Shown here one piece after another: positions 5,565 to 12,775 of a stretch of 14,361 nucleotides of DNA (its first letter is position 1; each line of letters begins with the position of its first letter). The DNA lies in assembly GCA_013619005.1 (NCBI GenBank), contig JABXKY010000073.1:1-14361 (forward strand). The letters run 5' to 3'. Source of the stretch: Candidatus Bathyarchaeota archaeon. Its GTDB lineage: Archaea; Thermoproteota; Bathyarchaeia; TCS64. The translations under genes were made by a program, and so were the position numbers. The notes beneath the pieces are model-generated. The model did not search any database. It worked only from the letters and a program-made list of their open reading frames with translations, and was not told the origin of the DNA.

Positions 5565-5646
5565 CATACACGCTCCCCCTGTTTGATTTTCTGGGGCTGT
5601 GTGGAACGGGGGAGACCCCATTCAGGCTACCAGAGGTGATAATAAA

Positions 5647-6972
5647 ATGACGGCCATAAGCGAACAGGAAAAGAAGGGGACGTTCTGGTTCATCCAGGGC
5701 AACATCAAGATACTAATAATATGCAGGCTGCTCTGGAGCCTCAGCACCAGCATCGTCTACCCATATTTCAGCTTCTACATAGCTGCACTTGGAGGCTCAA
5801 AACAGGATATTGGATTCATTAGCAGCATCGGGATACTAGCAGGATTGTTCCTATACCCCGTTGGAGGATTTTTAGCCGACAAATCTGGCCGTGTCAAACT
5901 CATCGGTTACAGCACAGTGCTCTATGCCTTCGCACACATCCCATTCGTTCTAGCCAATGACTGGAAGACTTTGGCCGTAGGGCAGTTCCTGTCCCAGTTA
6001 CTGCTATTCTACATACCTGCTATGAATGCTCTGAGCAGCGACAGCCTGCCACCTGGCGTCAGGGGCAAAGGGTTTGCCATCATGATGGCTGTGCCTCAGG
6101 CGATCAGGATAATAGCCCCTGTTATAGGGGGCTGGCTGATCGGCTATTATCAAGCGACCTCTGGATTGTCAGAGGACCTCGCTCTGATCAAAGCAGTCAA
6201 GCTGGCTTGGACAGTGGCATTCGCTACTGGGCTCGTCGTTGCATGGCTCAGGTTGAAATACCTCACCGAGACAGTTGAGGAAGACGACGCGGAATCGTAC
6301 ACTTGGGGTGACTCGTTGACCGTGCTCAAGGATAGCTACCTTAGCGTAATCGAGTCCATCAGGTGGATGAACAGTTCACTGAAAACAATCGTCGTAATCG
6401 AGATGATCGCGGCCTTCTTCGTCGCCATGAGCGCGCCCTTCTGGTCTTTATTCGCCAAAGACGTTGTCGGTTTAACGGTTCCCCAGTGGGGTAACGTGAA
6501 CTTCTGGAGCGGCTTAGTCGCCCTTCTCTTTGCACTACCCCTGGGAGGCGCCGTGGACAGGTGGGGAGCCAAAAAGTCTGTGATGGCTGGCATGCTCGTG
6601 GGGCCCATAATTATCTTCATGTTCCAGTACTCCACCGGTTTCTGGGCTGTAACCGCCATCATAACCATGATCTCGTTAGCTAACAAGATCATGATCCCAG
6701 GCTTCAGCACGTTGATCGCCAACATGATCCCGAGAGAGCGCCGAGGAAGGATATACAGCATACTGGGTGAGCGGGGGGTTCAGATCAGCTGGGGAAACTT
6801 CTGGGGTGGAGGCGTCCTACTGTTCCCGCCGGCAGCCCTGGGTGCATGGGTTGGAGGACAAGTGTATGCGTACAGTCCGACTTTGGTCTGGCAGATCACA
6901 AGCGCCGCACTATTCGTGTGCGCGTTGATGATACATTTCATGGTCAAGGAGCCTGAGAAGGCTCAGATCTAA
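5647..6972 (+). CDS. Major facilitator superfamily transporter (MFS 2)
   Basis: A 441-residue 12-helix MFS transporter. The loop 2-3 signature is a degraded GGFLADKSGRVK at residues 73-84. The post-helix-4 loop PAMNALSSDSLPPGVRG (about 124-140) closely matches that of the transporter at 1358, and the second half has LGGAVDRWGAKK and a PGFSTLIANMIPRERRG loop. A charged cytosolic linker lies near 205-235. The two halves also share the start-of-domain phrase QGNIKILIICRLLW, similar to the EGNIRVL start of the transporter at 9411, so the three look like paralogs. The ATG at 5647 is firmly chosen: a full Shine-Dalgarno GAGGTGAT at 5633-5640 lies six bases upstream, whereas an in-frame GTG at 5599 has none. 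Substrate unknown; an exporter of small hydrophobic compounds is a fair guess from the family. T-rich sequence follows the stop. Confidence 0.92.
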   Translation: MTAISEQEKKGTFWFIQGNIKILIICRLLWSLSTSIVYPYFSFYIAALGGSKQDIGFISSIGILAGLFLYPVGGFLADKSGRVKLIGYSTVLYAFAHIPFVLANDWKTLAVGQFLSQLLLFYIPAMNALSSDSLPPGVRGKGFAIMMAVPQAIRIIAPVIGGWLIGYYQATSGLSEDLALIKAVKLAWTVAFATGLVVAWLRLKYLTETVEEDDAESYTWGDSLTVLKDSYLSVIESIRWMNSSLKTIVVIEMIAAFFVAMSAPFWSLFAKDVVGLTVPQWGNVNFWSGLVALLFALPLGGAVDRWGAKKSVMAGMLVGPIIIFMFQYSTGFWAVTAIITMISLANKIMIPGFSTLIANMIPRERRGRIYSILGERGVQISWGNFWGGGVLLFPPAALGAWVGGQVYAYSPTLVWQITSAALFVCALMIHFMVKEPEKAQI

Positions 6973-8165: not shown

Positions 8166-8870
8166 ATGGAGGGGATGGGCTCCAACCTGACGGTGATGGC
8201 TGCCTGCTACCTGTACATAGTTTCCATCATCCTCTTCTCGGGGGCTCTGAAGAGGGCAAGCATCATCAGCACTAGAACTAGCCGCAAGTTCCTCCACGCC
8301 ATGATCGGTAACCTGCCCCTCATCATGCCATTCTTCACGGAGGCTATCTATCCTTTCCTCGTCGCAAGTCCTTTCATCGTGGTGACTTTCCTTGCAACAC
8401 CGCATTCGCCGTTCCATGACCTCCTTGACAGGCTGGGTGGTCTCGGTGAGTTAACTGAAGCGGGGCACAACACGGGCCCTTTCATGTATGCGATTAGTTA
8501 CACGCTGCTCTCCTACCTCTACGGCGCAAGCCCATACATCGTCGCCGCGGGAATATTCCCAATGGCGTACGGTGACAGCTCCGCCGCTCTGATAGGTATG
8601 AGATACGGCACAACCAAGTTCAAGGTCTTCGAGGAGAAATCCCTTCAGGGGTCCTTGGGGATGTTCCTTGGCAGCCTTGTGAGCCTGACACTTGGCATGG
8701 CCTACTTTTCTGGTTTCTACGGGTTCACTCTTGGGTCCCAGCTTGTACCAATTTTCGCGGTGTCCCTCGTCACGACTGTAACTGAGGCTGTCTGCCCCAA
8801 AGGACTCGACAACATATTCGTGCCAATCCTCGGCGCGATTACGTTCATCGCAATGGGAGGAGGCATCTGA
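8166..8870 (+). CDS. Dolichol/phytol kinase-like (SEC59/VTE5, COG0170) membrane protein
   Basis: A 234-residue integral membrane protein with about six or seven hydrophobic segments. It carries the family's landmarks in order: RTSRKFLHAM (Arg40-Lys41...His44), the loop MAYGDSSAALIGMRYG with Gly136-Asp137, the EKSLQGSLGMFLGS motif (Lys158-Ser159..Gly162) and the C-terminal TEAVCPKGLDNIFVP. In eukaryotes and plants this family transfers phosphate from CTP to dolichol or phytol; the related CdsA and CDP-archaeol synthase make CDP-lipids. The compact length and the KS.QG motif point to the prenol kinase side rather than CDP-archaeol synthase, but this is not certain. ATG 8166 is preferred over ATG 8175, because the GGAGG that would serve the latter is only two bases away from it. 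The stop codon overlaps the next start as TGATG, so both products are probably made in fixed ratio. Confidence 0.82.
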   Translation: MEGMGSNLTVMAACYLYIVSIILFSGALKRASIISTRTSRKFLHAMIGNLPLIMPFFTEAIYPFLVASPFIVVTFLATPHSPFHDLLDRLGGLGELTEAGHNTGPFMYAISYTLLSYLYGASPYIVAAGIFPMAYGDSSAALIGMRYGTTKFKVFEEKSLQGSLGMFLGSLVSLTLGMAYFSGFYGFTLGSQLVPIFAVSLVTTVTEAVCPKGLDNIFVPILGAITFIAMGGGI

Positions 8871-9433
8871 TGTTCATCGTCATCGACGGTCTCGACGGCT
8901 CAGGGAAGAGCACCCAAGCCGAGAAGCTGTGCGACCACATCGAGTCTCTAGGGATGACCTACGTCATCAGGTCCCACCCCAGCGGCGATAACTATCTGGG
9001 CAGGAAAGGAAGGGAGTACCTACTCAGGCAGGGCTCATGGGCCAGGATTCTTGCCAGCGCTTTCTATATGCTGGACGTGATTAGATCCGTCCTCTACTAT
9101 CGGTGGTCCAAGGTGGACTTCGTGGTGTTCGTCAGGTACCTGATGGGGACAGGGTACCTCCCCAGCCCGCTCCACAGGATCGCTTACATGGTGTTCAAGA
9201 TCACGATGCCCAACGGGGACCACATGTTCTTCATTGATGTGACCCCCGAGGAGGCGCACCGGAGGATAGAGGAGAACAGGGACGAGAAGGAGATGTTTGA
9301 GTCCCTTGAGAGGCTCACTAAGGTCAGGGGGAGAGTGCTTGAGCTGGCCCAGCGGAGGGAATGGACGATAATCGATGGCGACCAATCTCTAGAGGCAATT
9401 CAGTCTGAGATTAGGGGACATCTCGGTCTCTAA
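8870..9433 (+). CDS. Divergent thymidylate-kinase-like P-loop kinase
   Basis: A 187-residue P-loop kinase of the dTMP kinase superfamily. The phosphate-binding loop GLDGSGKST (7-15) is intact, and the DVTPEEAHRRIEENRDEKEMFE segment (123-144) matches the TMK region before and through the LID, with a good supply of Arg and Lys. Two substrate signatures differ. The REPGG-type loop of TMK is replaced by RSHPSGDNYLG (34-44), and the DR[YHF] motif that binds the nucleotide and magnesium reads VFVRYLMGTGYLP (86-98), without the Asp. The middle (about 95-116) is aromatic and Pro-rich. It therefore probably phosphorylates something other than dTMP. Coupling to the prenol-kinase-like gene (TGATG overlap) suggests a lipid-linked or prenyl-phosphate substrate; this is inference. 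A true dTMP kinase remains an alternative. The 3' end overlaps the convergent MFS gene by 23 bases. Confidence 0.82.
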   Translation: MFIVIDGLDGSGKSTQAEKLCDHIESLGMTYVIRSHPSGDNYLGRKGREYLLRQGSWARILASAFYMLDVIRSVLYYRWSKVDFVVFVRYLMGTGYLPSPLHRIAYMVFKITMPNGDHMFFIDVTPEEAHRRIEENRDEKEMFESLERLTKVRGRVLELAQRREWTIIDGDQSLEAIQSEIRGHLGL

Positions 9434-10607
9434 GCCCGTTGATTATCACAGCGATTATCACGAGGCTGACTGCCTGGACGTAAAGAGGCGCGTTGAACCC
9501 GTAGTTGTCGTAGAGCAAACCGCCTAGCCAAGGCGCGGGGATAGCGCCGAGCCTGCCGTAGGCGTCCAATTTCCCCATGACTGTGCTTCTCTTTTCCCTG
9601 GGCACCAACCCCGTCACGTAGCTCATGTATGATGGCATCCAGAAACCGATGTCGATGGCACTGACACCGTTGAATATTATGAAGAACTCGATGCGCTTGA
9701 ACAGGATAAAGCCCATTACGGATACAAACGCCATAGCGAAGCTCATTAACATCCCGTTCACGTGCCCGATCCTGTCAACCAACTTTCCTAGTGGGATAGA
9801 ATCCACCGCCCAGACAAGATTGAAGCTGGTACTCATCAGGCCTAACTGGAACGTCGTGAGACCGTATGTATCCGTTAGTGCGCCGTAGAAGAGGCTGTAT
9901 GCCACGGCATAACTGAACCCTTGAAGGAGCATAGAGGTATAGAGCGTAAGGTAGGTTCTCTCGGGTATCAGCATGTTTCTGATCTGCTGTGATAGAGGGA
10001 CTCGCTCAGAGTCATTGCTTTCTGGAGTATGGGTCTCCTCGATGTACCTCCACATCAAGAAGCTGCCGATAAGGTCCCCCACCACCGTGACGTAGAATAT
10101 GGGCATATACCCCACCTTGAGGGCGATGTAGCCACCTGCGCCAGCCACAAGGGTGCTCATGCCCTGGCTGATGGTTATCAGGGTGCTTAGCGCCGTTGCA
10201 GTCTGTGATGATTCCACTGACTCCGCTATCAGCGCGTTTCTAGCAGGATTCCCTATCATGAACATGGCGCTGAAACCAATGAAGAACCCGAAGACCAGCA
10301 GAGCATAGTAGTGACCCGAAACGATGAGCACCAGTATAGCCAGAGCCCTACATATGGCACTGCCAATCACGCCCGGCTTCCTGCCAACCCTGTCGCTAAT
10401 CTGCCCCCAAACAATCAGCCCAAGGGCTGTGCTGATGTTGATCATGGTCTGGACGAGACCCAGCTGGCTCACGGTGATACCTGTGCTGAGCAGGAACGGC
10501 TGCCATATCACATAGAACATACCCAGTCCGATCTGGCTCACGAACGTCTGCGCCGCGAGCACGCGGATGTTGCCCTCAAGGACAAGGTACTTGCTGATGG
10601 ACTTCAA
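9411..10607 (-). CDS. Major facilitator superfamily transporter (MFS 3)
   Basis: A 398-residue MFS transporter with 12 predicted helices. The loop 2-3 signature WGQISDRVGRKPG is at about 67-79 and the second-half equivalent LGKLVDRIGHVNG follows the central linker. The central linker (about 193-213) is Glu/Ser rich. Like the transporters at 1358 and 5647 it opens with a short amphipathic stretch ending in EGNIRVL and has a post-helix-4 loop PARNALIAESVESSQ and a post-helix-10 loop PSYMSYVTGLVPREKRSTVMG. The start is TTG at 10605-10607, since the next internal Met is inside helix 1; no clear Shine-Dalgarno is seen. It is the last gene of a minus-strand block after the aldo/keto reductase, 55 bases away, with its own TATA-like element in the gap. 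The 3' end overlaps the TMK-like gene by 23 bases. Confidence 0.92.
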   Translation of the reverse strand: MKSISKYLVLEGNIRVLAAQTFVSQIGLGMFYVIWQPFLLSTGITVSQLGLVQTMINISTALGLIVWGQISDRVGRKPGVIGSAICRALAILVLIVSGHYYALLVFGFFIGFSAMFMIGNPARNALIAESVESSQTATALSTLITISQGMSTLVAGAGGYIALKVGYMPIFYVTVVGDLIGSFLMWRYIEETHTPESNDSERVPLSQQIRNMLIPERTYLTLYTSMLLQGFSYAVAYSLFYGALTDTYGLTTFQLGLMSTSFNLVWAVDSIPLGKLVDRIGHVNGMLMSFAMAFVSVMGFILFKRIEFFIIFNGVSAIDIGFWMPSYMSYVTGLVPREKRSTVMGKLDAYGRLGAIPAPWLGGLLYDNYGFNAPLYVQAVSLVIIAVIINGLRDRDVP

Positions 10608-11501: not shown

Positions 11502-11512
11502 TGATAAGGTTA
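11502..11512 (-). promoter_or_regulatory. TATA-like box overlapping the MFS 4 stop codon (for the aldo/keto reductase)
   Basis: On the minus strand TAACCTTATCA is centred about 28 bases before the ATG at 11478, and its first three bases are the TAA stop of the upstream MFS gene. This favours the shorter reading of the reductase. Confidence 0.4.
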
Positions 11513-12775
11513 TTCAGATGCCTCTTTCTCGGCAAGCTGCCTCTCCCAGTCCTCCTCCAGAGTCCTAACCAAAGGAACAGTGAAACCCACGAAGCTTCCG
11601 AGCATGAAGACGACGCCCGATATCACAAACCAGAACCTGAGGCCGGTGAACTCAACTACGGGCCCCGCTATAGCCAGTCCGACAGGTGACACGGCGACAC
11701 TGGTGCTCATTATCAACGTGAACACCCTTCCCTGCATATCATGGGGGATCAAGGCCTGTAACACCGAGAAGAAGCTGCTGTTAGCGATGGAGTTCATGAA
11801 ACCGAAGACGAACATTGAGGCAACTCCGATCCAGAGCATATCCGCTGGTGTCCTGCTGAACACTAAGAGCCCGATGCCCGCCACGAATAATCCCGAGAAC
11901 GCGGTGTTGATCTTGCTCTTGAACCCGCCCCAGACACCTAGAGTTATCCCGCCCAGTATCATCCCAACTCCGTTTGCGGATTGTACCCAGGCGAGCTCGA
12001 TGGCTCCTCCCTTGAAGAACTCGGTGATAAGCAGCGGTAGCATCGTGAAAGTCGGTGTAGTAACCATGTTGATGCATAGGCTCATCAGCATTATGACGAG
12101 CAAGCCCTTCTGTTTGAAAATCCACTGGAAGCCCTCCTTCATATCCCCCAGGACGCCCCTCGCAGAGCCGCCGTCGTGTTCGGGCTGAGGAACCTTGATG
12201 AACATAAGTGGGCCAACAGCGAAGATAGCCGTCAACACATCGATAGCTAGAACGTACTGAATGGGCATTATCGCCAGGAGAAGCGCACCTAGGGGCGGCG
12301 CACTGACAGCGACAAGGCCGCTGAGGGCCTGGTTGAGCCCAGCAACCCGTGATAAGTGCTTCCTCGACACCATCATGCTCGTAGATGCCTGCATGGCAGG
12401 CCACTGGAAAGCCCCGCCGGCAGCCCTGAACATCATTACTGCGTAGATGTGCCACACCTCGACCCTTCCAACGCTGAACATGAACGCGAGGAAAAGGATG
12501 GACAACGCGATAAGTGAATCCGCGACCATCATCACAACCCTCCTGTTCCAACGATCAACCAGAGCGCCTGCGAACGGGCCTATGAAGACCTGCGGAAGCA
12601 GGGCGGCGATGCTGGCCGTCGCGAGCACCGACGGTGATTTAGTCAGCTCGGTTAGATGCCAGACGAGGGCGAACTGGACCAGCCTGCTGCCGAACAGGCT
12701 GAATGCCTGGCCTGTGAACAATACGAGGAAAGGCGCCATTGCCTTCGATAGGAAACCCGGCTCTTCGTCGCTCAA
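11510..12775 (-). CDS. Major facilitator superfamily exporter, EntS/MefA type (MFS 4)
   Basis: A 421-residue 12-helix MFS exporter of a different branch from the other three. It begins FLVLFTGQAFSLFGSRLVQFALVWHLTELTKSPS, the opening typical of the MFS_3 group that includes the enterobactin exporter EntS and macrolide exporter MefA. The loop 2-3 signature is GALVDRWNRRVVMMVAD (about 70-86), the post-helix-4 loop WPAMQASTSMMVSRKHLSRVAGLNQ (about 124-148) and the second-half loop VLQALIPHDMQGRVFTL. Such proteins usually export siderophores or lipophilic drugs. The start is TTG at 12773-12775, with the acidic MSDEEPG leader; the next Met is residue 13. A CTATTTGTT element about 30-40 bases upstream on the minus strand may be its promoter. 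It heads the minus-strand block and is divergent from the histidine phosphatase gene. Confidence 0.92.
   Translation of the reverse strand: MSDEEPGFLSKAMAPFLVLFTGQAFSLFGSRLVQFALVWHLTELTKSPSVLATASIAALLPQVFIGPFAGALVDRWNRRVVMMVADSLIALSILFLAFMFSVGRVEVWHIYAVMMFRAAGGAFQWPAMQASTSMMVSRKHLSRVAGLNQALSGLVAVSAPPLGALLLAIMPIQYVLAIDVLTAIFAVGPLMFIKVPQPEHDGGSARGVLGDMKEGFQWIFKQKGLLVIMLMSLCINMVTTPTFTMLPLLITEFFKGGAIELAWVQSANGVGMILGGITLGVWGGFKSKINTAFSGLFVAGIGLLVFSRTPADMLWIGVASMFVFGFMNSIANSSFFSVLQALIPHDMQGRVFTLIMSTSVAVSPVGLAIAGPVVEFTGLRFWFVISGVVFMLGSFVGFTVPLVRTLEEDWERQLAEKEASE

Follow-up and report, generated by a model that had tools for sequence, protein, structure and literature searches.

A thymidylate-kinase-like protein paired with a COG0170-type membrane kinase, a candidate prenyl-phosphate kinase of Bathyarchaeia and Thermoplasmatota

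Why should an apparent nucleotide kinase be encoded in immediate succession to a membrane kinase of a kind that phosphorylates isoprenoid alcohols? The question is raised by a 14,361-nucleotide stretch of bathyarchaeal DNA (the window), which carries on its forward strand an ORF of 234 aa (8166..8870) for a proposed prenol kinase of the COG0170 (SEC59/VTE5) kind, placed by conservation, hhalign comparison and motifs, and directly after it an ORF of 187 aa (8870..9433) for a thymidylate kinase (TMK)-like protein, here called TMKL, a proposed prenyl-phosphate kinase placed by its PF02223 match, predicted fold and residue changes. As the earlier note on this DNA had described, the two ORFs are joined by TGATG (8868..8872), the kinase stop TGA (8868-8870) and the TMKL start ATG (8870-8872) having one base in common, and the same one-base overlap is found in two related loci (L007 and L163). 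Elsewhere in the window, four large transporter-like ORFs (1358-2641, 5599-6972, 9411-10607 and 11510-12775) lie within 14 kb, two of them matching MFS_1 in Pfam and the other two assigned by eye, and a 337-aa membrane-like protein (286-1299) has no Pfam match at E 0.1. Two separate kinases that convert an isoprenoid alcohol to its diphosphate are known from plants, in which VTE5 acts on phytol and VTE6 on phytyl phosphate; VTE5 is of the same kinase kind as the window kinase, and VTE6 is a member of the DUF92 family (PF01940, COG1836) according to the available text of PMC9782597.

The linkage of the two genes, which the earlier note had put forward as a point to check, proved to be conserved well beyond the window. 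TMKL was found in 9 of 398 genomes of the window's phylum (E 1e-25), all of them in the window's class and with G181 (94 bits) as a borderline case, and in 75 of 292 genomes (E 1e-22) of a second phylum, that of Methanomassiliicoccus record L064, which we take to be Thermoplasmatota. The latter carry TMKL at 80 places, two each in five genomes (G458, G573, G646, G710 and G729), of which 79 were analyzed after omission of the second copy of G646 (L324, <110 bits); the bathyarchaeal set comprises 25 loci from 25 genomes besides the window, with the borderline G181 omitted. A kinase gene lies directly upstream of TMKL in 24/25 bathyarchaeal loci, including two (L166 and L156) where what remains of it is degenerate or broken, as well as in 71/79 Thermoplasmatota places. 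At the sole bathyarchaeal miss (L169) the contig stops 114 nt upstream, and the eight Thermoplasmatota misses consist of four second copies (L242, L320, L321 and L323), one contig end (L313), and three further places: L229 in G517, where the kinase lies about 5 kb from TMKL; L290 in G699, where a UbiA gene directly adjoins TMKL with no kinase between; and L319 in G616, where TMKL is present with no strong kinase match. Counted over the 292 Thermoplasmatota genomes, a strong kinase match (at least 133 bits) accompanied TMKL in 71, TMKL occurred alone in 4, and the kinase alone in 0, a zero that is biased in this direction because the profile was derived from kinases linked to TMKL. Genomes with weaker kinase matches numbered 18, among them the TMKL-bearing G725, and were counted apart. 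With the pairing recurring in two phyla, chance adjacency is ruled out. Five Thermoplasmatota genomes carry a second, lower-scoring TMKL-like copy with no adjoining kinase (L242, L320, L321, L323 and L324), possibly a further paralogue. At a few loci (L022/L156 of G036, G480:C2 and G502:C143) the kinase and TMKL of the same genome are both interrupted by stops or frame breaks, or fragmentary, as if the two decayed together; assembly error is an alternative.

The COG0170-type label that the earlier note gave to the membrane protein stands through intermediates and motifs, and not through any direct family match. The window kinase itself had no match among the models of Pfam (E 0.1) or NCBIfam (E 1) and no sequence relatives in the PDB (E 10), and a search of plasmid sequences returned no relatives of it. 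One relative of the kinase, L333, scores 119 bits against the kinase profile and exceeds the Pfam CTP_transf_1 (PF01148) cut-off (26.3 vs 24 bits), and the kinase profile aligns to the C-terminal domain of L061 at 96.8% in hhalign, that domain being in turn a sub-threshold CTP_transf_1 match. Within single ORFs of two relatives (L061 and L055), the COG0170-like domain follows a HAD (SerB-like) phosphatase domain. Two motif stretches are each present in all 27 aligned kinase members. One is the proposed nucleotide site GDxxAxxxGxxxG...KSxxG (D137 to G162; 8574..8651), whose general form GDxx[AG]...K[STY]xxG we take to be the nucleotide-site pattern of the COG0170 kinase kind; the other is RKxxH (R40, K41 and H44; 8283..8297), a proposed phosphate clamp that is invariant in the 16-row as well as the 27-row alignment. 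Altogether R40, K41, H44, G48, D137, G144, K158, G162, E207, D215 and N216 are invariant in the 27 members, which come from both phyla. The spacing of RKxxH is that of the Arg29/Lys30/His33 clamp in the model of PfPolK, a malaria prenol kinase related to VTE5, as given in the available text of PMC10849223. The AlphaFold model of the window kinase, made from a 3-row alignment, was poor (mean pLDDT 54.4). On its motifs and distant relatives, then, the membrane protein appears to belong to the COG0170 kinase kind, and its phosphorylation of a prenol is proposed.

TMKL can be placed directly, as it scores 108.7 bits against Pfam Thymidylate_kin (PF02223; cut-off 27), and yet it falls under the cut-off of the dTMP-kinase equivalog TIGR00041 (71.6 vs 83.25 bits), against which one Thermoplasmatota TMKL scores 42.0 bits and the other TMK of the window genome 172.5 bits. 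Its fold was predicted with AlphaFold from a 32-row alignment of the window and related loci, mostly canonical TMKs (mean pLDDT 94.3), and all 50 of the PDB matches listed for this model are thymidylate kinases, with TM-scores up to 0.83. Residue columns were compared over 152 rows, 73 of TMKL and 79 of other TMKs, split at 110 bits, a threshold clear of the rows since no alignment score falls between 94 and 125 bits; the alignment left out fragments of <150 residues and near-identical starts and drew on part of the Thermoplasmatota places, and L173, a Thermoplasmatota row, was grouped with the bathyarchaeal ones, which does not affect the totals. In common with thymidylate kinases, TMKL has the predicted fold, the P-loop, R89, R132 and the FE of the lid. 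The P-loop GLDGSGKST (8888..8914) is present with its K13 in 73/73 TMKL and 79/79 other rows, R89 is likewise kept in every row of both groups, R132 occurs in 73/73 and 70/79, and E144 in 73/73 and 72/79.

The acceptor side, by contrast, differs from that of thymidylate kinases, with Arg70, Asp88, Ser93 and AYQ all replaced. Where canonical TMKs have E36-P37, the window protein has H36-P37 (8975..8980), H36 being found in 73/73 TMKL rows and E in 67/79 others. At D69-V70 (9074..9079), V70 occupies the position of Arg70, which we take to be the base-contact residue of thymidylate kinases: R70 is present in 0/73 TMKL rows vs 77/79 others, with V70 in 69/73, and three residues on S73 is found in 72/73 where 62/79 others have H. 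The DRY...AYQ segment is remodelled to VRYLMGTGYLP (9131..9163), with loss of D88, the Asp of DRY, whose role we likewise take from TMK structures (0/73 vs 69/79). Position 88 is V or T in 73/73 TMKL rows and position 93 is G or A in 69/73 (S in 73/79 others), and the segment goes on to Y96 (73/73), L97 (71/73) and P98 (70/73), where the others have A (64/79), Y (71/79) and Q (55/79). The earlier note's reading of these motifs is borne out, with the P-loop intact, RSHPS in place of REPG and VRY in place of DRY, and the Arg of the last motif retained. The hydrophobicity of the acceptor-side segments also exceeds that of other TMKs (0.65 vs 0.00 for 58-78, and 0.77 vs -0.08 for 91-113), and the Arg that precedes HP is displaced by one residue toward the N terminus relative to canonical TMK, so that acceptor-phosphate binding is not simply conserved. 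A tree of the family contains a single, weakly supported split between TMKL and other TMK (SH-aLRT 53), the group labels having been set by score. As judged from these columns, TMKL is a protein that keeps the P-loop and, by prediction, the TMK fold and has lost the thymidine-recognition residues.

If TMKL were still a nucleotide kinase, for dTMP, CMP or another NMP, its coupling to the membrane kinase could serve to supply or recycle CTP, a reading that the predicted fold and its thymidylate-kinase matches favor. The loss of Arg70 and of the DRY Asp throughout the TMKL rows speaks against it, as does the presence of a canonical enzyme elsewhere in most of the genomes. The earlier note had named such a second, canonical TMK beforehand as a test, and it was found at no less than 132 bits in the window genome and in 41/45 TMKL genomes, a sample made up of 25/26 bathyarchaeal genomes (G007 omitted) and 20/75 Thermoplasmatota genomes. 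In the window genome, which is 85% complete, the other TMK lies on contig C324 (175 bits), ruling out TMKL as its sole dTMP kinase. No canonical TMK was found in the remaining four TMKL genomes (G012, G015, G019 and G023), which is a point in favor of a nucleotide substrate and reflects either genome incompleteness or a dTMP activity of TMKL. On balance we regard a retained nucleotide-kinase role as quite unlikely.

If the substrate is not a nucleotide, the neighbors of the pair offer the nearest indication of what it may be. A UbiA prenyltransferase gene immediately precedes the pair, in the same orientation, in 5/25 bathyarchaeal loci and 33/79 Thermoplasmatota places, and it is divergent from the pair in a further 10/79 of the latter. 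Bathyarchaeal UbiA linkage is that of family f8 (5/6 loci); UbiA is absent from beside the pair in the window and in 19/19 loci of f1/f2, the window's own group, of which 5 are uninformative on this point, having <700 nt upstream or no kinase. For four linked UbiA proteins the top NCBIfam model was PRK12884 ('prenyltransferase') in three, its cut-off being reached by two of the four, and PRK12882 (geranylgeranylglycerol-phosphate geranylgeranyltransferase) in one, its cut-off being reached by none. The linked UbiA may thus be digeranylgeranylglyceryl phosphate (DGGGP) synthase, the lipid enzyme that it resembles. In a UbiA search of 18 genomes, the linked UbiA was the best-scoring one in all 10 genomes that have one linked, and in G432 (98% complete) it was the only UbiA found, the other 17 genomes having 2 to 18 matches. 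Near UbiA in 23/80 Thermoplasmatota loci (e.g. L224:8099-9148) there is also a zinc-dependent alcohol dehydrogenase gene, noted from gene order and Pfam, which lies upstream at a distance of 3 to a few hundred bases, in some loci beyond a gene on the opposite strand; this enzyme might interconvert prenal and prenol.

The same neighborhood allows two other lipid substrates to be considered. Coming after UbiA in the operon, the membrane protein could act on a glycerolipid, as an archaeol/DGGGO kinase or a cytidylyltransferase forming CDP-archaeol, with TMKL unrelated or regulatory. The CdsA signature occurs in 0/27 kinase members, all 27 of which have RKxxH and K[STY]xxG, and we hold this reading to be very unlikely, even though the kinase superfamily includes CDP-diglyceride synthetase in the available text of PMC5898192. 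A long-chain dolichol or polyprenol for protein glycosylation is a further candidate, the kinase then forming dolichyl phosphate and TMKL dolichyl diphosphate. Dolichol kinase SEC59 belongs to the same kinase kind, archaeal DUF92 genes are linked to uppS (PMC5898192, available text), an NTP_transferase-type (sugar-nucleotidyltransferase-like) gene that would suit such a role is divergently placed beyond UbiA in L151-L154 of family f8 (Pfam assignment for the L152 copy), and the data are compatible with more than one chain length of the prenol. Against dolichol stand UbiA itself, which is the recurrent neighbor of the pair in either phylum and whose sole copy found in G432 is the linked one, where lipids should need it, and the recurrent Thermoplasmatota neighbor clusters, in which no glycosylation gene appeared among those identified (only some were). 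We therefore judge a dolichol-directed pathway unlikely, while still giving it some weight beside the geranylgeraniol reading that we prefer.

That reading, in which TMKL performs the step carried out by VTE6 in plants, can be compared with the distribution of DUF92. VTE6 is a membrane protein, whereas the partner in the window is a soluble P-loop protein of the TMK fold; neither window protein matches PF01940, and the window genome contains no DUF92 match. Kinship of the membrane kinase itself to DUF92 found no support in profile comparison (probability 0.6%, next to 0.3% for a negative control of kinase vs UbiA). Among Thermoplasmatota, DUF92 is present in 36/75 TMKL genomes vs 183/217 others (Fisher p 2.5e-9, with relatedness ignored), i.e. 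lacking in 39 and 34, respectively, and it is lacking in 30/33 genomes with UbiA in the operon, 0/10 with divergent UbiA, and 9/32 of the remaining TMKL genomes. It was found in 0/26 bathyarchaeal TMKL genomes, but also in just 4/40 of their TMKL-less bathyarchaeal relatives, 3 of these over the cut-off (4/61 relatives overall), so DUF92 is generally uncommon in bathyarchaea, where its absence does not point to an exchange. A physical connection between the two families comes from G461, a Thermoplasmatota genome outside the TMKL list, in which aa 92-295 of a single 524-aa ORF (L329) match the kinase family (76.5 bits) and aa 310-509 match DUF92 (134.5 bits; 122.7 bits with the Pfam DUF92 model). 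In the available text of PMC5898192, Makarova et al. describe the same COG0170-DUF92 architecture for Mbar_A3310, and they suggest that the DUF92 family carries out a kinase step of isoprenoid biosynthesis. These archaeal fusions resemble the window pair in that a first domain of the same kind is tied to a predicted isoprenoid kinase, and differ from it in being a single chain with DUF92, where the window has an operon with TMKL. The fusion suggests a subsequent phosphorylation step, which argues against the glycerolipid role considered above, and together with the near-strict pairing of TMKL with one membrane kinase it is more in keeping with a partner in one pathway than with an enzyme of general nucleotide metabolism.

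We therefore favor, with a probability of roughly 0.6, the explanation that the pair is a module converting a prenol to its prenyl diphosphate, likely geranylgeraniol to geranylgeranyl diphosphate (GGPP), with the TMK-fold enzyme in the place of VTE6. In this scheme the membrane kinase would phosphorylate a membrane prenol, most likely geranylgeraniol, at the expense of an NTP that by analogy may be CTP, and TMKL would be translated from the same message through stop/start coupling. The retained arginine may help TMKL to bind the prenyl monophosphate, to which ATP would give the second phosphate to yield GGPP; GGPP is the donor for the UbiA-type DGGGP synthase and other prenyltransferases. Run in this direction, the module would salvage isoprenoid chains for archaeal membrane lipids, and TMKL would take over the function that DUF92/VTE6 has elsewhere. 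The role that the earlier note had assigned to TMKL, as the second kinase from prenyl phosphate to diphosphate, is one that we still infer, and it is supported by the canonical TMK elsewhere in the genome, the preserved linkage, the UbiA neighbor and the DUF92 fusion. For the wider proposition, that a TMK-fold enzyme was recruited in Bathyarchaeia and Thermoplasmatota as a prenyl-phosphate (probably geranylgeranyl-phosphate) kinase replacing VTE6/DUF92, with a membrane prenol kinase beside it feeding lipid synthesis, we see somewhat better than even chances.

The two-step activity proposed for the pair has a precedent in an archaeon, as GGOH kinase and GGP kinase activities were reported in 1996 for Sulfolobus acidocaldarius, cited in the available text of PMC9385802 as enzyme activities, without a gene. 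TMKL need not be the Sulfolobus enzyme, being confined among the 398 genomes searched to the window's class, and S. acidocaldarius was not among the DUF92-positive control genomes. In the open-licence literature surveyed, no TMK-family protein was found to have been put forward as a prenyl-phosphate kinase. If our reading is correct, the pair would be a compact gene candidate for two-step prenol phosphorylation in archaea and an instance in which a nucleotide-kinase fold has come to act on a lipid phosphate, and some of the archaeal proteins annotated as second dTMP kinases may carry the wrong name.
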